IMG/VR virus record: IMGVR_UViG_3300025818_000145
Location: 1 to 27,007 of that record
Origin: a virus
Direction: 5' to 3' (one strand)
Length of the DNA: 27,007 nt
In this document: piece by piece, positions 2 through 19,851 of the stretch
How the letters are laid out: each line of letters begins with the position of its first letter
How positions within the stretch are numbered: position 1 is the first letter of the stretch
The notes under the pieces: model-generated
Database searches by the model: none
The model's input: only the letters and a program-made list of their open reading frames with translations
What the model was told of the DNA's origin: nothing
Made by a program: the position numbers and the translations under genes

Positions 2-285
2 GGTAATCAAGGACATCAAGGACATCAAGGTGATACGGGTGCACAAGGAGATGTTGGTGCACAAGGTAATCAAGGACATCAAGGACATCAAGGTGATACT
101 GGTGCACAAGGTAATCAAGGACATCAAGGACATCAAGGTGATACCGGAGCACAGGGAAATCAAGGATATCAAGGTGATACTGGAGCACAGGGTAATCAAG
201 GACATCAAGGTGATACCGGAGCACAGGGAAATCAAGGTTATCAAGGCGATGATGGTGCTCAAGGATTCCAAGGTGAAGCTGGAGG
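2..285 (+). repeat. Tandem collagen-coding repeat
   Basis: Short tandem DNA units built from GGACATCAA, GGTAATCAA and GGTGATACNGGNGCACAA recur in phase with the codons, giving periods of 9, 36 and 45 bases. The array encodes the Gly-X-Y part of the collagen-like protein. Such near-identical units are prone to slippage, so copy number probably varies between relatives. The array also opens a long spurious ORF in another frame. Confidence 0.85.
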
Positions 286-994
286 TGGAGGCGGCGGTGG
301 TGGATTTGACACCGGAATCACAACCTCTGCTTATGCTTCTTCATCGGATGATATTGATGGATTCACTGCTATTGGTGTCACTTTCCCGGCAACTGCAAGT
401 AAGAGATATGTCATTGAAAGTGTGCACATCACAAATGTGACAGCAAGTGATTTGTATGTGACCACTAGAATGGATTATGATGGTGGACAGAATGTTCCAA
501 TTACGAATAAAATTATTGTTCCTTATCAAGGTGCACTAGAAGTTGTTGATCAACCACTGGTCGCAAATCCATCAGACAATCTTCGTTTTGCTTCTTATGC
601 TGGTCTCGGAACTAATCCTGCAGGAGTTGCAAATGGTCTTGATTGTTGGATTACATATAAGCAAGATGATGCAACGGATTATATTGGAATCGGTTCAAAT
701 ATTACTGCAACCACAGATCAAACAGTCTTTACTTCTGTCACTAATCCATCAGTAATTAATACGATTGTGCTTGCAAATTATAGTGATACTGTAGATGTTG
801 ATGCATCTATTTCTATTTTCAGAGGTGGTTCTGTTCGTGTTGGATATCTGGCATATAATCTTACGATTCCTCAAAACAGCAATGTTCAGATTCTTCCAAG
901 ACAAAAGAGAATCGAAGCCACTGATACAATTGTTGCCACAGCATCAGTTGCAAATGCTTTAACTGTGAATGTTGCAGGCAAATATATAACCTGA
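2..994 (+). CDS. Collagen-like tail fibre/virion protein, C-terminal part (5' end outside window)
   Basis: The reading frame is open from base 2 to the TGA/TAA region at 994, so the gene begins upstream of the window. An apparent GTG start at 422 is only an internal codon. The first ~95 visible residues are a strict Gly-X-Y collagen-like repeat (GNQ, GHQ, GDT, GAQ triplets), followed by an eight-glycine run and a beta-rich C-terminal region of about 230 residues. Collagen-like stalks joined to globular heads are typical of phage fibres and form trimers. The visible repeat contains no proline or lysine, so stability would come from Gln/Thr/Asp/His triplets rather than hydroxyproline. The C-terminal region seems to hold two similar beta units (about 398-600 and 752-991), each ending in a 'D-[NT]-[LI]-x3-A-S' pattern. 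The call as a structural fibre is an inference from architecture and neighbours. Confidence 0.8.
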   Translation, partial: GNQGHQGHQGDTGAQGDVGAQGNQGHQGHQGDTGAQGNQGHQGHQGDTGAQGNQGYQGDTGAQGNQGHQGDTGAQGNQGYQGDDGAQGFQGEAGGGGGGGGFDTGITTSAYASSSDDIDGFTAIGVTFPATASKRYVIESVHITNVTASDLYVTTRMDYDGGQNVPITNKIIVPYQGALEVVDQPLVANPSDNLRFASYAGLGTNPAGVANGLDCWITYKQDDATDYIGIGSNITATTDQTVFTSVTNPSVINTIVLANYSDTVDVDASISIFRGGSVRVGYLAYNLTIPQNSNVQILPRQKRIEATDTIVATASVANALTVNVAGKYIT

Positions 995-2276: not shown

Positions 2277-4199
2277 ATGTCTGGAGTTTTTGGTTTATCG
2301 GATGTAAGAACGGAGCAAATAGATAGAACCTGGCCAGAATTTACGAATTATGGTTATTTTGTTGGTGGTGTAGCTCCTCCTGGATTTGCAGAGTCACGTA
2401 TTGATCGATTTGAGATAGCAACGGAAACAATAAGTCAACCACCTAACTTTAGTCAGTATAGCTCTGGTCAAGCAATTTCGGATGCTGTAGAAGCTTCTTC
2501 ATCAGAATATGGTTATATTGCTGGAGGTGATAATAGAGGAGGTAGTCCTGCAGCGAGAAGTTATATACGTAGAATTGATTTTTCACACGAACTTGATAGT
2601 GTTGTAGGGATCACACAAATTCCTGCCACACTACCTGCGAATCAGGACAACATGGCATCAATTTCCACCCCACAATATGCATATTTTGGTGGTGGTGCTG
2701 CTCCTTATGTGTGTAATATTCATAGACTTGAATTCTCATCAGAAACAATGTCTACAGATGCTTCAAATCTCACACAAAATAGAGGATTTCTTGCAGGTGT
2801 ATCTGGTTCTCAATATGGATATTTTTGTGGAGGATTTTCCACTCCACCTCCAACCAGACATTCTACAATTGATAGGATGGATTTTTCTACAGAAACTGGA
2901 AGTGTTCCTCCTGTTGAAGGTCAATTGACAGTTGGAAGAAGTCACCTCAATTCTTTTGAGAGTTCAGAACATGGTTATATTGTTGGTGGTTTGACACCGG
3001 TTGTTTGTACCGTTGACCGATTAGATTTTTCTTCAGAAACTGTTGCGGCAACTACAGGAGTACCTGAAATAATAGCGGCAGGAATAGATTTTTCTGTTAA
3101 AGAATATGGTTATATTGGTGGTAATGGCCCAGGAGCAAAATCCACTATCTATAGATTTGAGTTTTCATCCGAAACATTTTCAGCACCAGGAGCAATTTTA
3201 AGTAGTGTGAGGGGTTATGGTTCTGGAGTTAGAGACAGTAGTCGTATAAAACCAAATTCACTGAAAGGAACTGATATTGATGGAGTTCCTATTTCCAGCA
3301 CTTATGGATATTTTATTGGTGGTTTTTCTTTTAGTACTCCACCTCCGGTCACTAGTTATCACACTACTATTGACCGCATCAATTATTCTACCGAAACTGT
3401 ATCGTCTAATATATCTCCTAGAGGATATTTATCTTCACCAGGAAGAAATGGTGCAGGAGCAGTATCTAATTTCAATTATGGGTATGTTGCTGGTGGACTT
3501 TCTCCAATTAAAACAACAGTTGAAAAGATGGATTTTACTAATGAAATTACATCATTACCGGGAAATAATTTATCTCAAGCAAGAGCATATTTAGCAGGAG
3601 TTTACAATAATAATTATGGATATTTTTGTGGAGGATTCCATCCAACACCAGCATATTATAGCACTATTGATCGTATTGATTTTTCTACAGAATCTGTATC
3701 AACTCCTCCGGTAAAAATGAATAATGAATTGAGTATACCTAATGGTGGAACCGTATTTAATCCAAGTTATGCATATATAACTGGATTTAACGGATATGTT
3801 TGTACTATTGACCGATTAGAATTTTCTACAGAAACAATGGTAGAACCATCCCAGCAATTAACTAGAGCGGCTTTGGGTTTTGGTACATTGCAGAATTCAA
3901 ATTATGGTTATTTTTGTTCTGGAAGAACTTCACCAACTGTGCGTCCGGCAGTCATAGATCGTATGGATTTTTCAAATGAAACTGTAAGTTCACCTATTGG
4001 CAATGTGTCTCAAGCAAGACCGGGTTTAGCAGGAGTTTACAATAATAATTATGGTTATCTTGGTGGAGGAGAAATACCACCACTTAGTCCTGATTATGTC
4101 TGTACAATTGACCGATTAGAATTTTCAAATGAAACAGTATCGGAACCAAGTTCAGAATTGACAAGAAGTAGAAGCAATGCCAGAGGCCTCTCAAACTAA
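2277..4199 (+). CDS. Kelch-like 12-repeat fibre protein, paralog 1
   Basis: This 640-aa protein has a short N-terminus (MSGVFGL...WPEFT) and then 12 repeats of 45-58 residues. Each begins with a [N/E/Q/S/T]-Y-G-Y-[FIV]-x-G-G motif and contains '[ST]TIDR[LIM][DE]FS[ST]ET'. The order GG, then D-x-[FS]-[ST]-x-E-T, then an Arg near 'LTQAR', resembles kelch blades, so two six-bladed beta-propellers are plausible. Repeats 1-6 and 7-12 are divided by a linker around residues 325-342 with 'GTDIDGVPISS'. Its repeats are more diverged from each other than those of the other two paralogs. Neighbours suggest a receptor-binding or adhesion structure. The fold and role are inferred; no enzyme motif is visible. 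The start is the ATG at 2277, with no obvious Shine-Dalgarno. Confidence 0.75.
   Translation: MSGVFGLSDVRTEQIDRTWPEFTNYGYFVGGVAPPGFAESRIDRFEIATETISQPPNFSQYSSGQAISDAVEASSSEYGYIAGGDNRGGSPAARSYIRRIDFSHELDSVVGITQIPATLPANQDNMASISTPQYAYFGGGAAPYVCNIHRLEFSSETMSTDASNLTQNRGFLAGVSGSQYGYFCGGFSTPPPTRHSTIDRMDFSTETGSVPPVEGQLTVGRSHLNSFESSEHGYIVGGLTPVVCTVDRLDFSSETVAATTGVPEIIAAGIDFSVKEYGYIGGNGPGAKSTIYRFEFSSETFSAPGAILSSVRGYGSGVRDSSRIKPNSLKGTDIDGVPISSTYGYFIGGFSFSTPPPVTSYHTTIDRINYSTETVSSNISPRGYLSSPGRNGAGAVSNFNYGYVAGGLSPIKTTVEKMDFTNEITSLPGNNLSQARAYLAGVYNNNYGYFCGGFHPTPAYYSTIDRIDFSTESVSTPPVKMNNELSIPNGGTVFNPSYAYITGFNGYVCTIDRLEFSTETMVEPSQQLTRAALGFGTLQNSNYGYFCSGRTSPTVRPAVIDRMDFSNETVSSPIGNVSQARPGLAGVYNNNYGYLGGGEIPPLSPDYVCTIDRLEFSNETVSEPSSELTRSRSNARGLSN
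2346..4199 (+). repeat. 12 kelch-like protein repeats (6+6), paralog 1
   Basis: Twelve degenerate units of about 135-175 bases were counted by eye from the YGY-x-GG motifs, six on each side of the GTDIDGVPISS linker near base 3267-3300. Identity between units is low at the DNA level compared with the two downstream paralogs. Confidence 0.75.
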
Positions 4200-4200
4200 C

Positions 4201-4208
4201 ACTAAATA
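4201..4208 (+). promoter_or_regulatory. T4-like late promoter motif ACTAAATA
   Basis: A [A/C]TAAATA octamer lies in the gap after the kelch-like gene and ends 21 bases before the ATG at 4230, the same spacing as several other genes here. Confidence 0.5.
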
Positions 4209-4229
4209 ATCAAAACTACATTATTGTAT

Positions 4230-5867
4230 ATGAAGTCCGGAGCAACTGAAAGTTCTTTTTATTATCTTGCTCAACATTATACTTTTCCAGAGAATGTTGA
4301 TGTTAAGAGAACGACGAATGAAATTATAAAGTCCAATAAACAGTATAAAATTATCTGGGCTCATGATAATTGTGACCAGATGGGACACAAAGACCTTCCA
4401 CAATATGTGAATAAAATTGATGGCATTGTTTGTGTTTCGAACTGGGAACGAGAGCAGTATATAAAGTATAAAAGAGCACCAGCAGAGAAACTTCATGTAA
4501 TTCCAAACGGAGTTCATGATATGTTTCGTCCTTCTGGAAAACCAAAATCAAAAACTTGTATCTTTTTTTCTGCACCACATAAAGGAGTTGCACCTTTAGT
4601 TCCAATTTGGAAGGAAGTTATTAAACATCATCCAGATGCAAAACTCAAAGTGTTTTCTTCGATGTCTCTTTATGGTGATATTCAACCAGGAGAAGGTGAC
4701 AATGAAACAATCACAGGACCAAATGGATTAGAGCCATCACCATTTATTTCTGTTTATAAAGAACTTCAGAAACTTCCTGGTGTTGAGTATTCACCTTGTA
4801 TTGATCGTGAAGAGTTGCTACCTCATATTCAGGATGCAGCTTTTTATATTCATCCCAATGTTTGGGAGGAAACTTTTTGTGTATCATTAGCAGAAGCAAT
4901 GTCTTGTGGATGCTTTCCAATAACAACAGACATGGGAGCACTTCCAGAAACGGCAAATGGAATTGGAAAGTTTATTCCAATGTCAGGAAAAAACACACCA
5001 AGAGGATGGATACCTGACGAAACATTTCATAAAAACTTTGCCGAAGAAATGATTCGTGCTTTTCATTTCTTTGATGTTGCAAGAGATGAATATTATCAGG
5101 CATCAGAACTGATATCAAATTATGCAATAGAAAATTATAATTGGAAAAGAGTTGCTGGACTGTGGAAAAGTTATATTGAAAAGTATGATGATTATTATGA
5201 AAGATTTTCCGAAATCTTAATGACTCCATATGATCATATTGATTATCTCTATCAGATGAAGTATGAGCAATCAATAAATCCAAAAGTGATTTATGATATT
5301 GGTTCCAATTGTTTGCACTGGTCAAAGGTTGCACAAATGGTATGGAAAGATTCTAATATTTTTCATGTTGATGGATATGACCAATTCGAATCTCTCTATA
5401 AAAATAAGAAAGTTAATTATGCCATTGAGGTATTAAGTTCAGTAGATGATAAAGTTGTAACTTATTTTCAGAATGCCAGAAATCATGGAGGGTGTTCTTA
5501 TTATGAATTAAACTATAAGGATTTTCCTTATAATCAAAATGCATTTAGAAATCAACATTACTCTGAAGTTAAGAGAAGGACAAAGACTTTAGATACTCTA
5601 ATCAGAGAGAAAGGATGGCCAAAACCTGACTTGATTAAGATGGATGTTCAGGGATGTGAATTAGATATTATCAAAGGTGCTGTTAGTGCTATTAAATATT
5701 GTCCGAATATTATTCTTGAGTTGCAAAACAAAGAGTATATGAAAGGTGCTCCAATGAGAGATGAAGTCATTTCTTATATGAAATCGATTGGATATGTTCT
5801 GTCTTCACACTTTACACAAAACTCATCTGATGCTGATGGAGATTATCACTTCTCCAAACATAAATAA
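4230..5867 (+). CDS. Glycosyltransferase (GT4-like) fused to FkbM-family methyltransferase
   Basis: The ATG at 4230 gives 545 aa; an in-frame TTG lies two codons upstream. The N-terminal ~340 residues look like a GT-B retaining glycosyltransferase of family 4 type: 'DGIVCVSNWERE', 'VIPNGV', and the donor-binding E-x7-E motif in 'WEETFCVSLAEAMSCG' (E214 and E222), then 'TDMGALPE'. From about residue 350 the protein is an FkbM-type SAM-dependent methyltransferase with the SAM loop 'YDIGSN' (D356-N360) and the signature 'IKMDVQGCELDIIKGA' (D472-V-Q-G-C-E477). One polypeptide could therefore add a sugar and O-methylate it or a neighbouring group. The acceptor is unknown; fibre proteins or the host envelope are candidates given its place between two kelch-like genes. 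The N-terminal Rossmann half is short compared with bacterial GT4 enzymes. Confidence 0.82.
   Translation: MKSGATESSFYYLAQHYTFPENVDVKRTTNEIIKSNKQYKIIWAHDNCDQMGHKDLPQYVNKIDGIVCVSNWEREQYIKYKRAPAEKLHVIPNGVHDMFRPSGKPKSKTCIFFSAPHKGVAPLVPIWKEVIKHHPDAKLKVFSSMSLYGDIQPGEGDNETITGPNGLEPSPFISVYKELQKLPGVEYSPCIDREELLPHIQDAAFYIHPNVWEETFCVSLAEAMSCGCFPITTDMGALPETANGIGKFIPMSGKNTPRGWIPDETFHKNFAEEMIRAFHFFDVARDEYYQASELISNYAIENYNWKRVAGLWKSYIEKYDDYYERFSEILMTPYDHIDYLYQMKYEQSINPKVIYDIGSNCLHWSKVAQMVWKDSNIFHVDGYDQFESLYKNKKVNYAIEVLSSVDDKVVTYFQNARNHGGCSYYELNYKDFPYNQNAFRNQHYSEVKRRTKTLDTLIREKGWPKPDLIKMDVQGCELDIIKGAVSAIKYCPNIILELQNKEYMKGAPMRDEVISYMKSIGYVLSSHFTQNSSDADGDYHFSKHK
5859..5866 (+). promoter_or_regulatory. T4-like late promoter motif CATAAATA
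   Basis: This octamer overlaps the TAA stop of the GT-FkbM gene and lies 32 bases before the next ATG, which also has an AGGAG ribosome binding site at 5890-5894. Confidence 0.5.
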
Positions 5868-5898
5868 AAAAAATTGAACTGATATCTATAGGAGTTCT

Positions 5899-6744
5899 AT
5901 GTCAAATAATTATAAAGAAATTGCTCTTGCAAAATCCGATGAAGTTCTTGATGAGAGTAATGAATTTATGCTCAAGGTTCTTGCGGAGTGTGATCGTTGG
6001 AAAGAATCTGAAAGAGAACTTGCACAAGGAAGGTCAAACTTCCAGATTGAAAAGTTTATCGTTCATGATAATTTTACCATTCCATCAGCATTCAAAGCTG
6101 CAATTATCAACCGCAAGTCTGTGGCAGAGAACCTTCTAAATGGAATTCAGGATGCAAAGAAAATTGTAAGAGAGTTTCATTATAAGTGGGAAGGTAAAGA
6201 TAAAACTCAACCAATCTGGTGGAAGAATCGTGAAGGTGGTGAAGACCTTTGTTGGTATGATATTGATGAATTCAATTTTCATCGTTTTATTGATGGATTG
6301 AATGCTGGATTCAAAGCACAGACAACTGAACTTGAATTCTTTGATAAATTGATTGAAAGATTAATCGAATTGAACGGTGGTCATCCTCCAACAAAAGAAG
6401 AATTTGATGCCGATCAACCAGTTTATTGGGAAAGAAGATTTGCCAACCAGGCTCTTGATGAACTTCTTGCTGCACAAACAGGAGTCTCTGGTGGTAATAT
6501 TCGTTCTATGAGAAGAGCAACCGCACCAACAGTTCTTGAGGATGATGTGAATCGTATTAAGGAAGGCTATGCAGATCCAAGCAATTCAATCGCATTCCTT
6601 GAGAGTCTTCAGAGACATGTTGCTTCTGGTATTGAGGAAATTAGTGGACTATCAAATAATATTCTTCAAGGAAGAAAGGAGCAAACAAAACAATTAAGTG
6701 AGGAAAAAGTTTCGTTATTTAACGAAGAACTTCGCAAAAAATAA
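5899..6744 (+). CDS. Hypothetical helical protein between kelch-like genes
   Basis: I do not recognise a named domain in this 281-aa protein. It is rich in charged residues and predicted by eye to be mostly alpha-helical, with likely coiled-coil stretches at about 1-45 and 235-281. The middle is rich in tryptophan and aromatic residues ('PIWWKNREGGEDLCWYDIDEF'). No signal peptide or membrane segment is seen. It has one of the better Shine-Dalgarno sites in the region (AGGAG five bases before the ATG) and a late-promoter octamer upstream, so good late expression is likely. It ends 4 bases before the next kelch-like gene, which has no promoter motif of its own, so the two are probably co-transcribed. 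It could be a fibre-associated structural or chaperone protein; this is a guess from position only. Confidence 0.7.
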   Translation: MSNNYKEIALAKSDEVLDESNEFMLKVLAECDRWKESERELAQGRSNFQIEKFIVHDNFTIPSAFKAAIINRKSVAENLLNGIQDAKKIVREFHYKWEGKDKTQPIWWKNREGGEDLCWYDIDEFNFHRFIDGLNAGFKAQTTELEFFDKLIERLIELNGGHPPTKEEFDADQPVYWERRFANQALDELLAAQTGVSGGNIRSMRRATAPTVLEDDVNRIKEGYADPSNSIAFLESLQRHVASGIEEISGLSNNILQGRKEQTKQLSEEKVSLFNEELRKK

Positions 6745-6748
6745 GTAA

Positions 6749-8602
6749 ATGCCATCAGATGTTTTTGGGTTAGATGTAGTTTATGATAGACAGGTCGATT
6801 CTAATTGGCCAGAGTCTGCGAATTATGGTTACTTTGGTGGTGGTATTGCTCCACCTTTTGTTTGTACAATAGACCGCATAGATTTTTCTAGTGAAACTGT
6901 ATCGGAACCAAGTAGTGAATTAACTCAAGCAAGATATCTGTTAGCAGCAGTTTCTAATTCTAATTATGGTTACTTTGGTGGTGGTTATGCTCCACCACCT
7001 TTTGTTTGTACAATAGACCGATTAGATTTTTCTAGTGAGACCGTAACAGCACCAAGTAGTAATTTAACTCAAGCAAGAAACGGTTTAGCGGCAGTTTCTA
7101 ATTCTAATTATGGTTACTTTGCTGGTGGTTTATTTAATTCATCTTATCTTTGTACAATCGACCGTATAGATTTTTCTAGTGAAACTGTATCGGAACCAAG
7201 TAGTGAATTAACTCAAACAAGACAGGGTTTAGCAGCAGTCTCAAATTCTAATTATGGATACTTTGCTGGTGGTACAGCTCCACCTTTTGTTTGTGCCATT
7301 GACCGACTAGATTTTTCTAGTGAGACTGTAGCAGTGCCACCAGTAGGAGATCAATTAACTCAAGCAAGATATCAATTAACAGCAGTCTCAAATTCTAATT
7401 ATGGATACTTTGCTGGTGGTACAGCTCCACCTTTTGTTTGTACCATTGACCGACTAGATTTTTCTAATGAGACTGTATCGGAACCAAGTAGTGAATTAAC
7501 TCAAGCAAGATATATTTTAGCAGCAGTCTCAAATTCCAATTATGGTTACTTTGCTGGTGGTAGTGTTCCAGCTATTGTTTGTACCATTGACCGTTTAGAT
7601 TTTTCTAATGAAACTGTATCGGAACCAAGCAGCAACTTAACTCAAGCAAGAAGTTATTTAGCGGCAGTTTCTGATGGAAAATCAATAAACGCAAAAGGAG
7701 TTAAAAAAGGAACTGATGTTAATGGAGTTCCCATCTCTAGCACTTATGGATACTTTGGTGGTGGTGATGCTCCAGGTGTGGGTGTAGTATGCACCATTGA
7801 TCGTATTGATTTTTCAAATGAAACGACATCAGTTCCATCAGTTGATAATCAATTAAGTGCTGCGAGGGATGATTTAACGGCAGTTTCTAATTCTAATTAT
7901 GGATATTTTGCTGGTGGTTTTTCTCCACCTTTTATTTGTACTATTGACCGTTTAGATTTTTCTAACGAAATTACATCAATACCAAGTAGTCAATTGACTA
8001 GAAAAAGGGGAGATTTATCATCACTCTCTAATTCAAATTATGGTTATTTTGGTGGTGGTGCTAATCCACTCAGTACTTCTACTGTTGATCGTATAGATTT
8101 TTCAAATGAAACTGTATCTGAACCTAGTTCAGATTTAACTCAAGCACGGCATGAACTTGCGGCAGTATCTAGTTCTAGTTATGGATACTTTGCCGGAGGA
8201 AATCCCCTTCGTAGCACGATTGATAGATTAGATTTTTCTAATGAAACTATAATTGTCCCTCCAGTAGGAAATCATTTACCACAGGCTAGATCATTATTAT
8301 TTGGAGTTTCTGATTCTAATTATGGTTACTTTGCTGGTGGTTCTCCTCCAGCACATTCTACTGTTGACCGTTTGGATTTTTCTAATGAGACTACATCAGC
8401 TCCATCACCAGAATTAGGAACGACAAGATTAGGACTTTCTGGAGTTTCTAATTCTAATTATGGTTACTTTGCTGGTGGAGATAATCCTTCCATTGGCTTT
8501 CTCAGTAGTTTTGATCGCATAGAATTTTCTACTGAGACTATTTCAGCACCAGCAAATAATTTACCTCAACCAAGAGGTACTTTAGCAGGAGTCTCAAACT
8601 AA
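6749..8602 (+). CDS. Kelch-like 12-repeat fibre protein, paralog 2
   Basis: This 617-aa protein has the family N-terminus (MPSDVFGL...WPESA) and 12 very regular repeats of about 47 residues of the form 'NYGYFAGG-x5-8-CTIDRLDFSNETVS', then 'EPSSELTQAR', then 'LAAVSNS'. Repeats 1-6 and 7-12 are divided by a linker containing 'KGTDVNGVPISS' (about residues 319-331). The arrangement predicts two six-bladed kelch-type propellers. Repeats of the first half are close to identical, including silent sites. A 63-base segment at 7448-7510 is identical to segments in paralog 3. The cysteine before TIDR recurs in most units and could support disulphides or metal binding, but this cannot be told from sequence. 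The start has no clear ribosome binding site; coupling to the gene ending at 6744 is likely. Confidence 0.77.
   Translation: MPSDVFGLDVVYDRQVDSNWPESANYGYFGGGIAPPFVCTIDRIDFSSETVSEPSSELTQARYLLAAVSNSNYGYFGGGYAPPPFVCTIDRLDFSSETVTAPSSNLTQARNGLAAVSNSNYGYFAGGLFNSSYLCTIDRIDFSSETVSEPSSELTQTRQGLAAVSNSNYGYFAGGTAPPFVCAIDRLDFSSETVAVPPVGDQLTQARYQLTAVSNSNYGYFAGGTAPPFVCTIDRLDFSNETVSEPSSELTQARYILAAVSNSNYGYFAGGSVPAIVCTIDRLDFSNETVSEPSSNLTQARSYLAAVSDGKSINAKGVKKGTDVNGVPISSTYGYFGGGDAPGVGVVCTIDRIDFSNETTSVPSVDNQLSAARDDLTAVSNSNYGYFAGGFSPPFICTIDRLDFSNEITSIPSSQLTRKRGDLSSLSNSNYGYFGGGANPLSTSTVDRIDFSNETVSEPSSDLTQARHELAAVSSSSYGYFAGGNPLRSTIDRLDFSNETIIVPPVGNHLPQARSLLFGVSDSNYGYFAGGSPPAHSTVDRLDFSNETTSAPSPELGTTRLGLSGVSNSNYGYFAGGDNPSIGFLSSFDRIEFSTETISAPANNLPQPRGTLAGVSN
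6821..8602 (+). repeat. 12 kelch-like protein repeats (6+6), paralog 2
   Basis: Units average about 141 bases. Repeats 1-6 are strongly conserved in DNA, for example 'CTAATTATGG', 'CTGGTGGT' and 'ACTCAAGCAAGA' in nearly every unit. Repeats 7-12, after the linker at about 7700-7740, are more diverged. Confidence 0.82.
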
Positions 8603-8605
8603 ATA
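8598..8605 (+). promoter_or_regulatory. T4-like late promoter motif ACTAAATA
   Basis: The octamer is formed across the TAA stop (8600-8602) of paralog 2 and ends 21 bases before the paralog 3 ATG. An AAGGA ribosome-binding-like sequence lies at 8612-8616. Confidence 0.52.
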
Positions 8606-8626
8606 CAACATAAGGAAATAGATATC

Positions 8627-11197
8627 ATGCCATCAGGAGTATTTGGTTTAGAAAAAACATATAAGAAGCAAAGAAAAAAAGATTGGCCAGAGTCTGCGAA
8701 TTACGGTTATTCTGTGGGAACCACAAATCCTACACTTGCACCACCAACTGGAGGAGCTTGTATTATTGATAGACTGGATCTTTCTACAGAAGTTGTTTCT
8801 AGTCCTGGATCAATTGCGAATTATACTTATGCCATGTTTGACATGTCATCCCTAATTGGTAGGAATTATGGATATCTTGTCGGTGGAAAATCTCCATATA
8901 GTGCTGGTGTTCATTGTACAATAGTAAGACTTGATTTTTCAAATGAAACTTTTGAGGATATTGGTACTCATTTAAATTCATCTAAACAATGGACTTCTAG
9001 TGTCAACAGTCCGGAATATGGATACGTTTGTAGTGGTAGAGTTCCAACTCCAGCAGACATATCTACCATAGATAGATTGGATTTTTCTAGTGAAACTTTA
9101 ACGTCTTCACTATCCAATCTTACGACATCTAGAACAAATGCTGGGTCAACTTATTCGACACAATATGGATATATTGCTGCTGGTTTTGATGGCACATCTA
9201 ATGTTGCTACAATAGATCGATTTGATTTTACCAACGAATCATCATCTGTGATTTCTGGAACATTAAATAATCCAGGCAGAACCGGATTATCTCAACATAT
9301 ACAAAGTCAGAGTTATGGATATGTTGCTAGTGGCAGTTCATCTTATCCCACCGTAGTGGATAAAATTGATTTTTCAAATGATAGTTTTTCAAGAACAACA
9401 GATATAACTGTAGGAAGAGGTTCTGCTGGAGGAGCATCTACTTTAAATTATGGATACTTATTGGGAGGTATGTTTCCATATCGTTCTGATATGGATAGAA
9501 TAGACTTTTCAACGGACAGTGTATCAACACCTTCTTCAACACAAACTTTGAATAATAGGGGAGGTTCTACAGTAATTGCGGGTGGAATAAACAAGAGTGC
9601 AAAATCAAGAAGATATTTTCTTGATGTTGATGCTGTCCCTATAGGAAATGCTACTGGTTACTTTGCTGGTGGTGGTGCTCCGGCTGTTGTTTGTACAATC
9701 GACCGTATAGATTTTTCTAATGAGACTGTATCGGAACCAAGTAGTGAATTAACTCAAGCAAGATATCAGTTAGCAGCAGTCTCAAATTCGAATTATGGGT
9801 ACTTTGCTGGCGGTTTTGCTCCACCTCAAGTTTGTACAATAGACCGATTAGATTTTTCTAATGAGACTGTATCAGCACCAGGTAATGATTTAACTCAAGC
9901 AAGACAGTATTTAGCATCAGTCTCTAATTCTAATTATGGTTATTTTGGTGGTGGTGCTACTACTCCATCTTATGTTTGTACTATTGACCGATTAGATTTT
10001 TCTAATGAAACTGTATCAGAACCAAGTAGCAATTTAACTCAAGCAAGAAATCAATTAGCAGCAGTCTCAAATTCGAATTATGGTTACTTTGCTGGTGGTG
10101 GTCCAGGTAATGTTTGTACTATTGACCGACTAGATTTTTCTAATGAGACTGTATCGGAACCAAGTAGTGAATTAACTCAAGCAAGAACTGCTTTAGCAGC
10201 AGTCTCTAATTCTAATTATGGATACTTTGCTGGTGGGTGGGCCCCACCTCAACTTTGTACAATAGACCGACTAGATTTTTCTAATGAGACTGTATCGGAA
10301 CCAAGTAGTGAATTAACTCAAGCAAGAAATGGTTCAGCAGCAGTCTCTAATTCTAATTATGGATACTTTGCTGGTGGTGCTACTCCATCTTATGTTTGTA
10401 CTATTGACCGACTAGATTTTTCTAATGAGACTGTATCGGAACCAAGTAGTGAATTAACTCAAACAAGATATACTGCAGCAGGAGTCTCTGGTGGATGGGC
10501 TACTGCACCATCAATCGGACCAAGATCTGGACCAAGAACATCTGTCAATCCTGGTGGTGAAGGTGGTGGAGGTGGTGAAGGTGGTGGAGGTGCATCATCA
10601 CAAATGACATTTAAGTATTATGGTTATGGATCAAATACGGGAACTTTATCCGTTCACTGGGCACCAGGACCACCCACTTCTAATACAATCAGTGCCGCAC
10701 TTCCATTTACTGCCGATGGTTCAACAGTAACATCAATCTCCGGACAAACGCATCCAGGACCAGGACAAACTTGGAAATCTGCTACTGTAGATTTAAGTCC
10801 ATTATCACCGAGCACCGGACACTTTGTATTTAAATATCGTACTGGAACAAGTTTTAGAGGAGACTTCCAACTTGATGATATGGAATTCACACACTCTGGA
10901 GGAACTGATGATTTAGATCCGGATTTGAAGAGAACTGCATCAACCGATAATTGGCAAAAATGGAATGCTGGCCCACCAGCAACATACAATACATCTTTCT
11001 TTTCTAATGTGACAGTTTCAACTTCTGCTCCTGGTGGATGGAACTATGATGCCGGAGGAACACCATCTGGTTCTACTGGAACGACATCAGACTCTGATGG
11101 GAGTCCAACTGGATATTACATCTATGCAGAAACTTCTTCACCAAACTATCCACAGAAATATATGTGGTTGAGAACTGCAACTCCGGTTACGATTTAG
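8627..11197 (+). CDS. Kelch-like 12-repeat fibre protein with MAM-like C-terminus, paralog 3
   Basis: This 856-aa protein shares the family N-terminus (MPSGVFGL...WPESA). Repeats 1-6 (about residues 25-345) are diverged. Repeats 7-12 (about 345-622) are almost identical to each other and to the first half of paralog 2, which suggests a chimera formed by recombination. A Gly-rich linker (about 640-657, GGEGGGGGEGGGG) leads to a C-terminal domain. Residues ~659-755 resemble the second half of a MAM-type jelly-roll ('GTLSVHW', 'TWKSATVDLSPL', 'GDFQLDDMEF'). Residues ~770-856 resemble a first half ('SPTGYYIYAETSS', 'YMWLRTATPV'). This would make it the largest adhesin-like protein in the window, with a distal carbohydrate- or protein-binding domain. 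The function is inferred. A ribosome-binding-like AAGGA precedes the ATG. Confidence 0.77.
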   Translation: MPSGVFGLEKTYKKQRKKDWPESANYGYSVGTTNPTLAPPTGGACIIDRLDLSTEVVSSPGSIANYTYAMFDMSSLIGRNYGYLVGGKSPYSAGVHCTIVRLDFSNETFEDIGTHLNSSKQWTSSVNSPEYGYVCSGRVPTPADISTIDRLDFSSETLTSSLSNLTTSRTNAGSTYSTQYGYIAAGFDGTSNVATIDRFDFTNESSSVISGTLNNPGRTGLSQHIQSQSYGYVASGSSSYPTVVDKIDFSNDSFSRTTDITVGRGSAGGASTLNYGYLLGGMFPYRSDMDRIDFSTDSVSTPSSTQTLNNRGGSTVIAGGINKSAKSRRYFLDVDAVPIGNATGYFAGGGAPAVVCTIDRIDFSNETVSEPSSELTQARYQLAAVSNSNYGYFAGGFAPPQVCTIDRLDFSNETVSAPGNDLTQARQYLASVSNSNYGYFGGGATTPSYVCTIDRLDFSNETVSEPSSNLTQARNQLAAVSNSNYGYFAGGGPGNVCTIDRLDFSNETVSEPSSELTQARTALAAVSNSNYGYFAGGWAPPQLCTIDRLDFSNETVSEPSSELTQARNGSAAVSNSNYGYFAGGATPSYVCTIDRLDFSNETVSEPSSELTQTRYTAAGVSGGWATAPSIGPRSGPRTSVNPGGEGGGGGEGGGGASSQMTFKYYGYGSNTGTLSVHWAPGPPTSNTISAALPFTADGSTVTSISGQTHPGPGQTWKSATVDLSPLSPSTGHFVFKYRTGTSFRGDFQLDDMEFTHSGGTDDLDPDLKRTASTDNWQKWNAGPPATYNTSFFSNVTVSTSAPGGWNYDAGGTPSGSTGTTSDSDGSPTGYYIYAETSSPNYPQKYMWLRTATPVTI
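8699..10491 (+). repeat. 12 kelch-like protein repeats (6+6), paralog 3
   Basis: Units 1-6 are diverged and units 7-12 (from about 9650) are near-identical. A 63-base stretch beginning GACCGACTAG is identical at 10124-10186 and 10265-10327, and at 7448-7510 in paralog 2. A further copy near 10406-10468 differs at one base. Confidence 0.82.
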
Positions 11198-11234: not shown

Positions 11235-11894
11235 ATGAATCATTTACTTGGTAATATCCTTATTCAACCAAATGTTGTGACAAAGGAAGGATGTAAATAT
11301 CTCACAGAATATGTAAAGAAGGCACCCAAAATGAGGATGGGTGTTTATGATGCCGAAAAATCAAATGAAACAAAAAAGGATGAATCAAAAGTAGATCCAA
11401 ATGTAAGAGATGTAGAGTGTGCCGATATACAACCAATCATGGCAGACGTTAAATCTCTTTATGATGATATGGTATATAATGTCATCAATCCTTTTTATGA
11501 CTTTTATATCAACGATAGTGAAGTTCCCCAGTTTTTATATTATAGGGAAGGAGGACACTACAAACCTCATTATGATGGTGAAGCCTTATGGGTAAATCCT
11601 GATGGAACAAAGCAATGGAAAAAATCTATTGATAGAGATATTTCTACTGTTTTATTTTTGAATGATGATTTTGAGGGTGGAGAGTTTGTATTTCCAAAAT
11701 ACAGAATTCGTATTAAACCAGAACCAGGCCTTCTGATCGCATTTCCATCAACACATCATTATCTGCATGGAGTAGAACCAGTTAAATCTGGTGAGAGAAT
11801 CGTCAGTGTTTGTTGGATGAGAGTAAAAGGAGTTCCAACAAAGGATGAGCAAGATAAACAGATTGCAGATAAATATGGAATAGAGGTCTATTAA
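11235..11894 (+). CDS. 2OG-Fe(II) oxygenase, prolyl-4-hydroxylase-like
   Basis: This 219-aa protein has the full facial triad of the prolyl-4-hydroxylase-type 2-oxoglutarate dioxygenases. The H-x-D motif lies in 'GGHYKPHYDGE' (H112, D114) and the distal histidine in 'HHYLHGVEPV' (H178). R188 in 'SGERIVSVCW' is placed to bind the 2OG carboxylate. 'DISTVLFLNDDFEGGEFVFP' is the typical strand between them. Length fits a stand-alone catalytic domain. The substrate is unknown: a prolyl/lysyl residue of a structural protein is one possibility, though the visible collagen-like repeat has neither residue. It sits between the largest kelch-like protein and a tail-assembly chaperone-like gene. Confidence 0.88.
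   Translation: MNHLLGNILIQPNVVTKEGCKYLTEYVKKAPKMRMGVYDAEKSNETKKDESKVDPNVRDVECADIQPIMADVKSLYDDMVYNVINPFYDFYINDSEVPQFLYYREGGHYKPHYDGEALWVNPDGTKQWKKSIDRDISTVLFLNDDFEGGEFVFPKYRIRIKPEPGLLIAFPSTHHYLHGVEPVKSGERIVSVCWMRVKGVPTKDEQDKQIADKYGIEVY
11868..11875 (+). promoter_or_regulatory. T4-like late promoter motif GATAAATA (inside upstream gene)
   Basis: The octamer lies within the 3' end of the oxygenase gene, 25 bases before the ATG at 11901. Its sequence and spacing fit the other late promoters, but the same string also occurs in coding DNA elsewhere (14852, 14932), so chance is possible. Confidence 0.35.
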
Positions 11895-11900
11895 TTTAAA

Positions 11901-12455
11901 ATGACACAACTTTTAAAACATTATTGGGTAGATAGGGATAATACCAGTGTCTTTGCAATTTCTTCATCAATGTGGAGTCGTCCCAGATTTGGATATGTGG
12001 CTCCTAATATCGCAGGTCTTGAGATCGTTCATAGAATAACTGATAGTAATGGTATTCCTTTTTGCTTATCGACTTGCCCCGATGATACTACCATCACAGA
12101 AGAAGATGGTCTTGAAATTCTGACTCAAGCAGAATGGGATGCAGAAATTGCTACTTATGATACCGCACAAGAAACAAAAAGATATGTTGAGGTAAGAAGT
12201 ATTCGAGATAAACTTCTGTCCGAGACTGATTGGATTGTCACAAAATCGTTGGAGACAGGTGTTGCTCTGTCATCAGAATTTACAACCTGGAGAACTGCTT
12301 TAAGAAATCTTCCAAATGGTTCTGAATTTCCACTTACTCTTCCTGATGCACCAGTTGCAGTTTCTGTAAGTAATGCAGAATATCTGGCACAAGTAACTCA
12401 AATTCCGATGATTAATGATCCAAATGTTGTGGAAGAAGAATTACCTGGTGAGTAA
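11901..12455 (+). CDS. Phage tail assembly chaperone-like protein
   Basis: The C-terminal part of this 184-aa protein contains 'RDKLLSETDWIVTKSLETG', then 'FTTWRTALRNLP' (about residues 97-138), the recognisable Phage_tail_APC-type pattern (R-x-x-LL-x-x-[ST]DW, then W-x-x-[YA]-R-x-x-LR-x-[LI]P). Proteins with this motif accompany tail fibres and are thought to help fibre or tail assembly. The N-terminal ~90 residues ('KHYWVDRDNTSVFAISS', 'ILTQAEWDAEI') look like a small fibre-interacting domain. It ends tail to tail with the minus-strand oxygenase, overlapping it by 15 bases (12441-12455), so no intergenic terminator is possible there. The motif match is good; the chaperone role here is inferred from the fibre-rich neighbourhood. 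Confidence 0.68.
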   Translation: MTQLLKHYWVDRDNTSVFAISSSMWSRPRFGYVAPNIAGLEIVHRITDSNGIPFCLSTCPDDTTITEEDGLEILTQAEWDAEIATYDTAQETKRYVEVRSIRDKLLSETDWIVTKSLETGVALSSEFTTWRTALRNLPNGSEFPLTLPDAPVAVSVSNAEYLAQVTQIPMINDPNVVEEELPGE

Positions 12456-13022
12456 GGAATAACACTTCTCATTTCTATCATAAGCATAGTCAGCATACTC
12501 ACCATTCTTTCTGACATAGTGTAGAAAGAGTTGCATAAACCTATCGTTCTTATGTGTTCGTAGTGGTGACCTCCAGTGAGGAACGATAGTTCCAAGATAT
12601 GCAACACCATGTCCAACAGGTGTCACGACCTCTCTACGCTTCCCTGTGAGGTCTTTAAGTTTAATAGGCCACTCTGCATCACCACAGATATTCATCGTTA
12701 CAGAGACCTCACAGGAGGGTCTGTCAGTGTGACAATTCATCCATCCTTTATTATGATATGTTGTAGTAAACCAATATGATGGAATGAGTTCCTCTCCAAG
12801 TAGTTCTTCAAGAATAGGTTTCATTCTCTTCACAACAAATGTGGAGGACTCTGGAGCATAACAACACATCACATTTCCTCTTTCAGGATCATAATGAGTT
12901 TTAAGACCTCCAAGATCATGAATTGCACCCATTAGATTCTGATATTTAATTTGTATTGCTTCTTGTTTACTAATAATGTCTGGTATATAATGCCAACCTT
13001 TCTTTGCAAATGATGAAGTCAT
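12441..13022 (-). CDS. 2OG-Fe(II) oxygenase-like protein on the opposite strand
   Basis: This is the only convincing minus-strand gene in the window (193 aa). It shows a 2OG-Fe(II) dioxygenase layout: H-x-D in 'WMNCHTDRPSCEVSVTMNI' (H98, D100), 'PVGHGVAYLGTIVPHWRSPL' carrying the distal histidine (H149), and Arg residues nearby (R151 or R161) before 'FMQLFLHYV'. Conserved W/P spacing ('AEWPIKL') supports a jelly-roll fold. Its 3' end overlaps the 3' end of the plus-strand chaperone-like gene by 15 bases. A TCTAAATA late-promoter octamer reading leftwards sits 20 bases before its ATG, so it can be expressed late despite its orientation. The lone inverted orientation suggests insertion as an independent cassette. 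The substrate is unknown. Confidence 0.8.
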   Translation of the reverse strand: MTSSFAKKGWHYIPDIISKQEAIQIKYQNLMGAIHDLGGLKTHYDPERGNVMCCYAPESSTFVVKRMKPILEELLGEELIPSYWFTTTYHNKGWMNCHTDRPSCEVSVTMNICGDAEWPIKLKDLTGKRREVVTPVGHGVAYLGTIVPHWRSPLRTHKNDRFMQLFLHYVRKNGEYADYAYDRNEKCYSLLTR

Positions 13023-14308: not shown

Positions 14309-14899
14309 ATGAATTATTTTTTAAAGAATCAAAAACTCAATGAGTCTCCAAGTCCAACATTATGGGTTGTAGATAATTTTTATGATGATCCACATTCTAT
14401 TAGAAATTTTGCATTGGAACAAAATTTCATTTCTGACAGTGGATATAAAGGAAAGAGAACTGAACATCAATATGAAATTCCTGGAACAAAGGAAAGATTT
14501 GAGATGATTATGAATAAAAAAATTACTGGATGGACAGACACATATACAATGTGTGGAAGATTTCAGTATTGCACTTGTGAAGACCCATTAGTATATCATG
14601 CAGATTATCAAAGATGGGCCGCTACTGTTTACCTAACACCAGATGCTCCGTATGAGTGTGGAACATCTTTACTTGCACATAAAGAAACAAGGATTAGGCA
14701 TGTTAGTGTTGAAGGATCTGATGTAATTTGGTCTAAAAAGTTTTTAGATCCTACACCTTGGGATCATATTGATGTTGTTGGCAATGTTTTTAATCGATTA
14801 GTCATATGGGATGCAAAGTGCCCTCATGCTGCGTCTAAATATTTTGGATATGATAAATATGACTCTAGATTATTCCATATGTTCTTTTTCGACACTTAA
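14309..14899 (+). CDS. DUF6445-like putative 2OG-Fe(II) oxygenase
   Basis: This 196-aa protein matches, from memory, the DUF6445 pattern found in marine phages and proteobacteria: 'VVDNFYDDPHSIRNFAL', 'GRFQYC', 'VYLTPDAPYECGTSLLAHKET', 'DPTPWDHIDVVGNVFNRLVIWDA' and 'RLFHMFFFD'. An H-x-D pair (H97, D99 in 'VYHADYQRWAA'), a later histidine (H173 in 'CPHAASKYFG') and an arginine (R187) follow the facial-triad order of 2OG-Fe(II) dioxygenases. Catalytic activity is therefore likely but not established by sequence alone. It begins one base after the GT2-methyltransferase gene, so the two are probably co-expressed. Confidence 0.75.
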   Translation: MNYFLKNQKLNESPSPTLWVVDNFYDDPHSIRNFALEQNFISDSGYKGKRTEHQYEIPGTKERFEMIMNKKITGWTDTYTMCGRFQYCTCEDPLVYHADYQRWAATVYLTPDAPYECGTSLLAHKETRIRHVSVEGSDVIWSKKFLDPTPWDHIDVVGNVFNRLVIWDAKCPHAASKYFGYDKYDSRLFHMFFFDT

Positions 14900-16799: not shown

Positions 16800-18361
16800 T
16801 GGCTCAGTGGAATAAAACTACACAAGATTACCTCAATCAAGAGAGAAGTCTATTTGAGGTTTACATGTGTGCCGACAGATACGGCAACATTGATGGGTGC
16901 AATGGAACTGCGAGTGGTAGTGGTGCATTTGGAGAACAAATTGTATCTCAAATCACCCCAGTCCTTCAACTTGATGGTCTGTATGGTTTAAACTCAGATA
17001 GATTTGAACTCTACTCATTTGGTACTGGTAGCACTAGTGATGCTAATAATTTGATGACTACATCAACAGGAACTGGTGCTTATGGTTATGGAGTTGTTCG
17101 TTCTAAAAGATCTGTAAGATATCGTCCAGGACAAGGTGCTCTCGCAAGATTCACAGCACAGTTTTCTGGTATTGCAACAGGATATACACAAAGAGCAGGA
17201 TTCTTCACACAAGAGCAAGCACTTCAAGTTGGATACAGCACTGAAGGAAGGTTTGGTATTCTTCGTGAGAATGGTGGTAAAGCTCACATTCATAGATTTA
17301 CTATCACAACACCTTCAAGTGGCACAGAGAATATAACAGTCACTCTTGCTGGTGTCGCATCCACAGTTACTATTGGATCAGGAACAACAACACAAAACGC
17401 AACTGGTATTGGAACTCATACTTATGCTGGTTGGATTGCCGACTATAAGAATGGTTATATTGATTTCTTATCCACAAGCGTCGGTCCAAAAACAGGCACA
17501 TTCTCTATTGTAAGTAATGGTGACCTGGTAGCTACATCAACAACTTCTCAAACAGGTGTAAATCATACAAGCAACTGGACATATCAAGAGGACTGGAACT
17601 TTGATACGATGACTGGTGTTGGTGGCACCACCAATCCATCAGGAGTTACATTAGATCCAACCAAACTGAATGTATACCAAATCAACTTCCGTTGGTTGGG
17701 TGCTGGTGAGATGAGATTTGCTATTGAAAATCCCACAACGGGAGATATGATGCCCGTTCATCATATTCACTATACAAACAGGAATAATACTGTTCATTTA
17801 GATAATCCATCACTCAAGATTGGATATGTGGCTGCCAATCTGGATGGTAATACTGGTGCTGGTGTAACAGTCTCTGGCGCATCTATGATGGGTGCGATTG
17901 AAGGTGTTATTAATACCACAACCCTTCCAATCGGTGCCTTTAGAACAAAGACTGGTGGAATGAATAGTACTGGCACAAAATTCCACCTGATTACCATTAA
18001 GGGCGGTATGATTGTCAATAACAAAATTAATACCAGAGAACTTATAGTAAAGAAAATTAGTGCTCTAACAACATCGGCAGGAACAGCACCTTGTTTTATC
18101 TATCTGTATATTGATCCAATAACAGCAGATCCTTTAGATTTCACACCTCTTGGAAATGCTTCTTCATATTCAACAACTGATACAACAATCACTGGTGGAG
18201 ATCCAGCAGCAGTTTTTTGTGTTACATCGGGTGCTCCAGAAACAATTGATCTTGATGAGTTGAGAATTGTTTTACCACCACAAAGACTATTCACGCTAGC
18301 AATTTCTTCCAGTGCTGTTCTACAAAATGCAGATGCTGCAATAACATTTGTTGAGGATTAA
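16799..18361 (+). CDS. Putative beta-rich virion structural protein
   Basis: This 520-aa protein is poor in charged residues and rich in Gly, Thr, Ser and Asn, typical of beta-structured virion components. Recognisable stretches such as 'WNKTTQDYLNQERSLFEVYMCADRYGNI', 'VRSKRSVRYRPGQGALARFTAQF' and 'NVYQINFRWLGAGEMRFAIENP' recall conserved structural proteins of marine T4-like phages, from memory, but I cannot assign a T4 gene number. 'YRPGQGALARFTAQFS' with the later 'W-x-GAGEMRF' suggests a jelly-roll lectin-like core of ~300 residues, followed by a second beta domain. It starts within the TAATG junction of the capsid-targeted protein and lies directly upstream of the terminase, where T4 has gp16. 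It does not look like gp16. Confidence 0.65.
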   Translation: MAQWNKTTQDYLNQERSLFEVYMCADRYGNIDGCNGTASGSGAFGEQIVSQITPVLQLDGLYGLNSDRFELYSFGTGSTSDANNLMTTSTGTGAYGYGVVRSKRSVRYRPGQGALARFTAQFSGIATGYTQRAGFFTQEQALQVGYSTEGRFGILRENGGKAHIHRFTITTPSSGTENITVTLAGVASTVTIGSGTTTQNATGIGTHTYAGWIADYKNGYIDFLSTSVGPKTGTFSIVSNGDLVATSTTSQTGVNHTSNWTYQEDWNFDTMTGVGGTTNPSGVTLDPTKLNVYQINFRWLGAGEMRFAIENPTTGDMMPVHHIHYTNRNNTVHLDNPSLKIGYVAANLDGNTGAGVTVSGASMMGAIEGVINTTTLPIGAFRTKTGGMNSTGTKFHLITIKGGMIVNNKINTRELIVKKISALTTSAGTAPCFIYLYIDPITADPLDFTPLGNASSYSTTDTTITGGDPAAVFCVTSGAPETIDLDELRIVLPPQRLFTLAISSSAVLQNADAAITFVED

Positions 18362-18374
18362 AAGGAGTTTTGTT

Positions 18375-19253
18375 ATGAGTGACGTATATCTTGGCAATCC
18401 ATTATTAAAAAAAGCAAATACTGCGATTGAATTTACTCAAGAACAGATTGAGGAGTTTATTAAATGTCAGAGTGACCCAGTATATTTTGCAAAAAATTAT
18501 GTGAAGATTGTGACTCTTGATAAAGGATTACAACCTTTTGAGTTATACCCATTTCAAGAAAAGTTAGTTAATAACTTTCATAATAATAGATTTAATATCT
18601 GCAAGATGCCACGGCAGACAGGTAAATCAACAACTGTGGTTTCTTTTCTTTTACACTATGCAGTATTTAATGATAATGTCAATATAGGCATTCTAGCAAA
18701 CAAAGCTGCAACCGCAAGAGAACTTCTTGATAGGTTACAAACTGCATACGAGAACTTACCAAAGTGGATGCAGCAAGGTATCATAGCATGGAATAAAGGT
18801 AGTTTGGAGTTAGAAAATGGCAGTAAGATATTGGCAGCTTCTACATCTGCAAGTGCTGTCCGAGGCATGTCGTTCAATATCCTCTTTCTCGACGAATTCG
18901 CCTTCGTCCCTAATCACATCGCTGACTCCTTCTTTGCATCTGTTTATCCTACTATTACTTCTGGTAAAAGCACAAAAGTCATCATAGTTTCAACGCCACA
19001 TGGTATGAATCATTTCTACCGTATGTGGCACGATGCGGAAAAAGGTAAGAACGAATATATTCCCACAGATGTTCATTGGTCAGAAGTTCCAGGTAGAGAT
19101 TCTAAATGGAAAGAACAGACTATTGCAAACACATCAGAGCAGCAGTTTAAAGTTGAGTTTGAATGTTTGGATGGAAATACATCGATTGAAATTTTAGATG
19201 AGAATAATACCATTCAAAAAATTTCAATGGAAAACTTATATAAACGGTTGTGA
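18375..19253 (+). CDS. gp17 (N-half): Terminase large subunit, N-terminal ATPase half fused to split N-intein
   Basis: The chosen ATG at 18375 follows an AAAGGAG ribosome binding site (18361-18367) and gives 292 aa; an in-frame TTG upstream is less likely. Residues 1-263 are the ATPase half of a T4 gp17-type packaging motor: Walker A 'PRQTGKST' (79-86), Walker B 'NILFLDEFAF' with D173 and E174, and the coupling motif 'IIVSTPHG' (203-210). After 'FKVEFE' the protein switches at C264 to 'CLDGNTSIEI' and ends '..MENLYKRL', a 29-residue N-terminal intein fragment (block A). It then stops, so the nuclease domain is missing here and is supplied by the gene at 19844. Trans-splicing would join E263 to C104 of that protein to give 547 aa, a normal length for marine T4-like gp17. 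ATP-driven packaging of DNA into the prohead through the portal (gene at 24208) is the expected role. Confidence 0.9.
   Translation: MSDVYLGNPLLKKANTAIEFTQEQIEEFIKCQSDPVYFAKNYVKIVTLDKGLQPFELYPFQEKLVNNFHNNRFNICKMPRQTGKSTTVVSFLLHYAVFNDNVNIGILANKAATARELLDRLQTAYENLPKWMQQGIIAWNKGSLELENGSKILAASTSASAVRGMSFNILFLDEFAFVPNHIADSFFASVYPTITSGKSTKVIIVSTPHGMNHFYRMWHDAEKGKNEYIPTDVHWSEVPGRDSKWKEQTIANTSEQQFKVEFECLDGNTSIEILDENNTIQKISMENLYKRL
19164..19250 (+). other. Split intein, N-terminal fragment (29 aa)
   Basis: Begins at the nucleophile Cys (codon 19164-19166) and carries the block-A pattern C-x-D-G-x-T. It ends before block B, much earlier than conventional split inteins such as DnaE or gp41-1, whose N-fragments are about 90-120 residues. 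The 'LYKRL' ending resembles the N-fragment of the AceL-TerL intein as I recall it. Confidence 0.85.
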
Positions 19254-19281: not shown

Positions 19282-19851
19282 ATGTATTATATTTACTTTC
19301 TTAAAGACTTGGATGGAAAAGTCAAATATGTTGGACAGACTCAAAATTTAGATTCTAGAAGAAGAGAACATAAAAGAAATAAACCACCACATAAATTTGA
19401 AATAAGTGAGCAGATAGATATTTCAGAAAAAGCAAAAGAAGCAGAAATTTTTCATATAGAAAAATTTGATACTTTTAAAAATGGATGGAATAAATCTACT
19501 GGTGGAGAAGGATTTGATGACTACGAAAGAAAAGGAATTGGTGGAGCAAAAAAGGGAACTATTCCTTGGAATAAAGGAGTCAAAAATTGTTTCTCTGAAG
19601 AGACTATAGAAAAAATGAGCAATTCTAGAAAAGGTAGAGTTTTTAGTAGAAAAATAAATGACGATCAAATAAGAGAGATAAGGAAACTATATAATGAAAA
19701 ACCAGAATTACAAAATGTCGGTGCAATTATGAAAAATGGTAAAAGATTATCATATATTCAGGCATTTTGTAAGGAATATGCAAAAGATTATAATTTAACT
19801 CCACAAGGGATAAAAAGAATTATTTTAAAGGAATGCTGGACAAATGTTTAA
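19282..19851 (+). CDS. Free-standing GIY-YIG homing endonuclease with NUMOD3-like motif
   Basis: This 189-aa protein starts with a GIY-YIG nuclease domain: 'YYIYFLKD' (2-9) supplies the GIY strand, 'KYVGQT' (15-20) the YIG strand, R26-R28/H30 the conserved Arg/His region, E53 or nearby the metal-binding Glu, and 'GWNKSTGGEG' (68-77) the N-x-x-GG motif. A NUMOD3-like DNA-binding motif follows ('FSEETIEKMSNSRKGR', about 104-119). A helix-turn-helix-like C-terminus comes last ('YIQAFCKEYAKDYNLTPQGIKRI'). It should cut intein-free terL alleles and drive copying of the insertion. It has no in-frame connection to either intein fragment. Its end overlaps the start of the downstream terminase half by 8 bases, so that half may depend on translation of this gene. 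The base composition is visibly more AT-rich than that of the flanking terminase. Confidence 0.88.
   Translation: MYYIYFLKDLDGKVKYVGQTQNLDSRRREHKRNKPPHKFEISEQIDISEKAKEAEIFHIEKFDTFKNGWNKSTGGEGFDDYERKGIGGAKKGTIPWNKGVKNCFSEETIEKMSNSRKGRVFSRKINDDQIREIRKLYNEKPELQNVGAIMKNGKRLSYIQAFCKEYAKDYNLTPQGIKRIILKECWTNV

Follow-up and report, generated by a model that had tools for sequence, protein, structure and literature searches.

Beta-propellers of the kelch type from eukaryotes and poxviruses usually bind intracellular proteins. Kelch proteins have also been described in phages: in phage CBB, the kelch protein CBB_552 was found in the virion (PMC5259590), and the function of jumbo phage kelch proteins is given as unknown (PMC7760394). 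In cyanophages, a kelch-repeat gene of P-HM2 is absent from the co-isolated P-HM1 (PMC3037559). The only isolated relative of the proteins analyzed here is found in S-SKS1 (SWZG_00001 and the SWZG_00287-00291 region), in which the kelch proteins are annotated only as hypothetical; the corresponding family, PHROG 19111, has its function listed as unknown.

The window (i.e. the whole stretch of DNA analyzed, a viral fragment of 27 kb) belongs to a T4-like cyanophage, a virus of ocean cyanobacteria; the portal protein shows 80-86% identity to its counterparts in the Synechococcus phages S-SM2, Bellamy, and S-SCSM1. It encodes three kelch proteins, distinguished by the class of their N-terminal tag (R, D, or K), in the following arrangement:

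2..994, + strand: collagen-like tail fibre, 3' part, the upstream end of the cassette (PF01391, E 2.4e-13; PHROG 5073, tail fibre)
2277..4199, + strand: kelch double-propeller protein, tag class R, 640 aa (PHROG 19111, E 1.9e-106); tag 2277-2345, propeller 1 2346-3239, linker 3240-3299, propeller 2 3300-4196
4224..5867, + strand: glycosyltransferase and FkbM methyltransferase (Pfam), adjoining the companion and a conserved neighbour in most loci
5899..6744, + strand: conserved companion protein, 281 aa, directly 5' of the class D kelch gene
6749..8602, + strand: kelch double-propeller protein, tag class D, 617 aa (Pfam kelch models, AlphaFold, Foldseek); tag 6749-6820, propeller 1 6821-7675, linker 7676-7741, propeller 2 7742-8599
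8627..11197, + strand: kelch double-propeller protein, tag class K, 856 aa (unit count, unit HMM, Pfam MAM-like domain); tag 8627-8698, propeller 1 8699-9577, linker 9578-9649, propeller 2 9650-10489, C-terminal extension 10490-11194
11235..11894, + strand: 2OG-Fe(II) oxygenase-like protein, conserved in order as the neighbour downstream of the kelch genes (S-SKS1 homologues annotated as 2OG-Fe(II) oxygenase)
11901..12455, + strand: tail-fibre assembly chaperone-like protein (PF16778, 30.8 bits, cut-off 26.6; PHROG 4912, tail fiber assembly, E 5.5e-27)

We consider it probable that the three kelch proteins are modular adhesins, i.e. receptor-binding heads, docked on the virion by their tags and equipped with exchangeable propellers.

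A first, sequence-only reading of this DNA had counted exactly 12 repeat units in each of the three proteins, arranged as six units, a linker, and six units. The open reading frames are present, and an independent unit HMM returned 12, 12, and 12 units at the same positions; the units are about 45-58 aa long, and a longer interval occurs only after unit 6 (66, 68, and 68 aa in classes R, D, and K, respectively). That reading had also placed a YGY-x-GG motif in every unit; the unit is indeed unmistakable, but the literal string is missing from some copies (YAYFGGG, EHGYIVGG, NYGYSVGT, ATGYFAGG). The linker motif it assigned to the first two proteins is there (GTDIDGVPISS and GTDVNGVPISS), the linker of the class K protein being different (YFLDVDAVPIGN), and the common N-terminus (MSGVFGL, MPSDVFGL, or MPSGVFGL, plus WPE[FS]) occurs in all three proteins. 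What it had overlooked is the 235-residue C-terminal extension of the class K protein, which comprises a Gly-rich hinge and a MAM-like domain (approximately 10604-10894; 34.4 bits against a Pfam cut-off of 26.4), a candidate second binding domain. The extension is present also in a related contig (L013), with 92% DNA identity.

In profile searches against kelch families, the class D protein scores above the curated thresholds of two kelch models from Pfam (PF24681, 69.7 bits, cut-off 50; Kelch_3, PF13415, 53.5 bits, cut-off 22), the class R protein scores 29.3 bits, below the Pfam kelch cut-off, and the class K protein has no Pfam kelch match. The latter two join the kelch superfamily because PHROG 19111 and the unit HMM are common to all three proteins. 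Matches to the Pfam SpdB family were rejected as spurious, as they cover only a glycine-rich stretch of 12-24 residues at the unit start. The best sequence match of the class D protein in the PDB is SAKe6FR, a designed six-bladed kelch protein. The proposal of two six-bladed beta-propellers per chain, for which structure prediction had been suggested as a check, is supported by the AlphaFold model of the class D protein (built on 28 window and locus sequences; mean pLDDT 85): its 48 strands form 12 four-stranded blades, closed into two rings of six, with a pTM of 0.52 that leaves the mutual orientation of the rings unfixed. In a Foldseek search, one class D ring matched Keap1, KLHL proteins, and SAKe6 with TM scores of about 0.9 (up to 0.93 on the target) and an rmsd of about 2 A. 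The model of the class K protein reached a pLDDT of 46.7 and does not confirm the propeller rings. The Gly-Gly doublet that follows strand 2 in kelch blades is found in 32-33 of the 36 window units and in 96% of units family-wide. On the other hand, the conserved Tyr and Trp that follow the doublet are not found; the aligned positions of the phage unit hold Leu/Ile (IDRLDF) and Val/Thr. The phage unit is a divergent kelch-like blade, so named on fold and profile rather than on the classical consensus.

For the family as a whole, the closed-ring fold is supported by the number of units. Scans of viral contigs revealed 33 loci with the class D protein as the query and 80 loci with its upstream neighbour. 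Among 104 non-redundant full-length tagged kelch open reading frames, 94 have a unit count that is a multiple of six, namely 6 (n=2), 12 (76), 18 (13), or 24 (3). The ten exceptions are broken or truncated genes, very divergent proteins (in which the unit HMM probably misses a unit), and two open reading frames from one contig (L063). The spacing between units 6 and 7 is 58, compared to 48-49 elsewhere, and extra intervals follow units 6, 12, and 18. Under a null model uniform modulo six, 94 of 104 has a probability of about 3e-61, but the sequences are related; following clustering at 60% identity, 28 of the 30 groups retain multiples of six (26 with a modal count of 12, one with 6, and one with 18). 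Distant relatives (L113-L125) have single-propeller proteins with exactly six units in 32 of 32 cases; most of these begin with a different, glycine-rich N-terminal tag, and such tags are shared from contig to contig. Counts of this kind are required by a closed six-bladed ring and would not be seen in an open repeat array. In L063, the class D gene (7412-9919) has 16 units, compared to 18 in the closely related L064 (2734-5535): two blades are absent in frame from the middle propeller, between near-identical stretches. This may be either a real deletion, which would leave a four-bladed remnant, or an assembly collapse. No confirmed relative turned up in GTDB genomes, in a single scan that used the family alignment and one degenerate pattern and is thus a weak search for a cellular origin.

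Variation within the units is concentrated at a few positions. In the 18 most similar window units, the codons following GG and following AR show a nonsynonymous difference of 0.71-0.95 and a synonymous difference of 0.01-0.11. In the scaffold codons, by contrast, the amino acid seldom changes and synonymous differences are frequent. The same columns are the most variable ones family-wide (600 units). In a HMMER alignment they pair with Tyr525, Gln530, and Ser555 of Keap1 (numbered by our own chain offset); Ser555 and its repeat equivalents are reported peptide-contact residues of Keap1, and the top side that carries them also holds Tyr525 and residue 530 (PMC12266349). In 17 close orthologous pairs the excess is modest: 5.0% of loop residues changed versus 1.8% of scaffold residues (2.8 times, p 6e-6), and the nonsynonymous to synonymous ratio of the loops was not significantly higher (p 0.19). 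Tail-region proteins that are hypervariable at a fixed set of codons recall the targets of diversity-generating retroelements. Nevertheless, no reverse transcriptase (PF00078) was found in the window and 12 related records (0/13, several of them fragments), in a search that detected the positive controls, and the variable codons include changes of all kinds, beyond those derived from adenine, so that this explanation is largely refuted and hardly credible.

Three classes can be told apart by the N-terminal tag, which is about 22 residues long: R (..FSL/FGL..VRTEQ; window protein 2277), D (DVFGL..VYDRQV; 6749), and K (GVFGL..VYKKQV; 8627). Among the contigs that show three tagged genes, R, D, and K occur once each in 32, and no contig with tagged kelch genes was found to contain two D copies. 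The one-of-each pattern is broken by an extra, truncated R copy in L084-L089 and by a few tags that our patterns could not class. The extra R gene encodes the tag and a single unit (95 aa) and is apparently a decaying copy. Within these loci, the tag HMM matches kelch open reading frames only. The suggestion that the N-terminus serves for attachment is supported indirectly, by a conserved segment that comes in three classes, once per phage, and stays constant while the propellers swap. The companion is separated from the D gene mostly by 4-8 nt, or overlaps it slightly (in open-frame coordinates). In the window it is preceded by the separate glycosyltransferase/methyltransferase gene, and in distant relatives (L041, L044, L113-L125) it is fused to a glycosyltransferase (606-632 aa). 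The fusion suggests a functional link of glycosylation with the kelch genes, and makes it a reasonable guess that the fibre or the kelch proteins are modified. The companion's match to ferritin-like proteins is weak (E 0.0057, below the cut-off).

The clearest view of propeller evolution comes from closely related loci. In L036, five flanking genes are 96.6-98.2% identical to those of the window at the DNA level. In the class R gene, propeller 1 is 93.8% and propeller 2 is 63.3% identical; the corresponding values for class K are 97.6% and 67.4%, and in class D the propellers are 57.5 and 68.3% identical and the tag 93.1%. Identity falls at gene position ~1030, where propeller 2 starts. A third locus, L013, has the same flanks with a different exchange pattern. 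Between phages that are ~97% identical in the flanks, single propellers have been replaced wholesale, and the breakpoints fall at the linker. A direct mosaic is found in the R gene of L029, which is 100% identical to L023 up to nt ~1000 and 96-100% (~99%) identical to L022 from nt ~1036. Most relatives are metagenome contigs, but the key chimaeras recur in separate assemblies: a gene with the length and unit pattern of the L029 R gene is present in contigs from three datasets (L029, L031, L032). Many pairs of loci with a 99-100% identical companion have propellers just 29-72% identical at the protein level. Propellers also cross tag classes, with identity of up to 94% (propeller 1 of the L077 D protein and propeller 1 of the L079 R protein). 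The kelch proteins share with phage receptor-binding proteins and tail fibres a conserved N-terminal part, here the putative attachment tag, and an exchangeable distal part.

It could be argued that the variable propellers arise mainly by neutral recombination of repeats, in which blades are amplified and genes converted with no selection for new binding. In all lineages, beta-propellers are continuously built anew by amplification of a single blade (PMC9218822), and the near-identical units and the two-blade loss in L063 relative to L064 agree with such a process. However, the concentration of nonsynonymous change in a few loop positions against mostly synonymous differences in the scaffold, the persistence of counts that are multiples of six, and replacement that follows propeller boundaries make this explanation quite improbable.

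The genomic neighbourhood points to the tail. The order of collagen-like fibre, kelch genes with glycosyltransferase and companion, 2OG oxygenase, and tail-fibre assembly protein is widely kept, and the kelch genes share with those of receptor-binding proteins and tail fibres a tail-fibre-region location with an assembly chaperone as neighbour. In the window the cassette lies upstream of gp17 (large terminase); in S-SM2, Bellamy, and S-SCSM1 the gp16-gp17 interval contains tail-fibre and virion protein genes. The kelch genes lie between gp15 and gp17 in contig G005 and near baseplate and tail-fibre genes in S-SKS1. In contig G001 the cassette is far from gp17, hence it is not bound to a single fibre locus. 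The genes around the kelch cassette and the collagen-like fibre include several encoding 2OG-Fe(II) oxygenase-like proteins (1022-1600, 11235-11894, 12441-13022 on the - strand, and 14309-14899), which could hydroxylate fibre proteins. Farther downstream, the large terminase is encoded in two open reading frames (18348-19253 and 19844-21007) with a GIY-YIG endonuclease frame (19282-19851) between them; at their ends, inspection by eye suggests a short N-part and a C-part of an intein, and the arrangement resembles the known split TerL inteins AceL-TerL and GOS-TerL.

We propose that in each chain the docking tag leads into two closed six-bladed kelch propellers with the linker between them, and that class K has the MAM-like domain in addition. 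The R, D, and K tags would dock the three proteins at three different positions of the virion, probably on the tail fibres or the baseplate, and the hypervariable loops on one face of each propeller would bind molecules of the cyanobacterial surface. Specificity may then change either by recombination that replaces a whole propeller between the conserved tag and linker, or by substitution in the loops. That the three kelch proteins bind receptors is a well-motivated inference.

Two other functions have to be weighed against this proposal. The proteins may decorate the virion, as whiskers or as lectins of the capsid or tail surface, and mediate loose sticking to cells, particles, or mucilage rather than act as primary receptor-binding heads. 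In favor of this, phage CBB, a phage with tail whiskers on its virion, has kelch proteins, of which CBB_552 was found in the virion (PMC5259590); several of the BFVD entries matched by kelch fold bear the name virion structural protein; and the cassette encodes a collagen-like fibre as well as the MAM-like domain, a second candidate for adhesion. Yet the cassette adjoins a tail-fibre assembly chaperone and sits in the tail-fibre interval of relatives, and determinants of specificity would be expected to show just such replacement of individual propellers; we regard decoration as unlikely. Alternatively, the proteins may stay outside the virion and act in or on the infected cell, for instance by binding many host proteins or by blocking receptors against superinfection. 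Intracellular protein binding would be usual for kelch propellers of eukaryotes and poxviruses, and glycosyltransferases and 2OG oxygenases are among the neighbours. We give this possibility little credence, as the conserved tag classes, the location among late structural genes, the tail-fibre chaperone neighbour, and the cassette-like replacement fit adhesins better.

The adhesin reading can be extended to a natural combinatorial binder platform with three fixed docking slots on the virion (R, D, and K), each holding 2-4 interchangeable six-bladed propellers that are traded between phages and between slots by recombination; the arguments for and against this extension seem to us evenly balanced. 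If it is true, propellers traded at the conserved tag and linker would allow a phage to display six or more independently evolving binding faces. The genes bear on an open question, namely how abundant marine T4-like phages change their host range. Here, one propeller, a discrete and countable unit, is the candidate determinant of specificity; its exchange between near-identical phages can be followed in the sequence, and the residues predicted to make contact can be named, which turns the evolution of host range into a testable question about modules.

The sequence-only reading knew of no described phage receptor-binding system of this kind. For the exact arrangement this holds in the open-licence literature searched, where neither triplicate sets of tagged multi-propeller proteins nor an exchange of propellers was found described; it does not hold for phage kelch proteins as such, which are known and include the CBB virion protein (PMC5259590). 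The closest system, S-SKS1, has the K, R, and D tags, the companion, the unit, and the linker position of the window, with kelch proteins ~49-56% identical to those described here. Its record (L010) differs in that frameshifts interrupt two of the three kelch genes and one gene extends past the end of the record; the frameshifts fall inside repeat units and may be either sequencing errors or real on/off variation. The jumbo phage proteins (CBB_550/552/554, PhiPA3, and Erwinia phage pEa_SNUABM_12) share the six-bladed kelch fold, including a PhiPA3 "virion structural protein" that matches the window proteins by fold, but are only 14-21% identical in sequence, and the accessible portions of their descriptions mention neither tag classes nor double propellers nor propeller exchange. 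P-HM2 likewise has a kelch gene that differs between closely related cyanophages, mentioned only as a non-shared gene; its protein was not detected by tblastn as a relative of the window proteins. The kelch domain of Keap1 and the designed SAKe6 have the same fold, and their binding face corresponds to the hypervariable phage positions, but they are single propellers, eukaryotic or designed, and the classical Tyr/Trp pair is replaced in the phage unit. The highly repetitive bacterial propellers (WRAP, VCBS, and others) show recent blade amplification, disrupted copies, and a suggested role in recognition; they are mostly cellular, and the tag-and-slot layout and whole-propeller exchange are not described for them in the accessible text (PMC9218822). 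The kelch set of the window is a natural counterpart of the designed symmetric kelch binders. Kelch proteins in phages are already known; the triplicate, exchangeable, multiples-of-six design is a new form of them.
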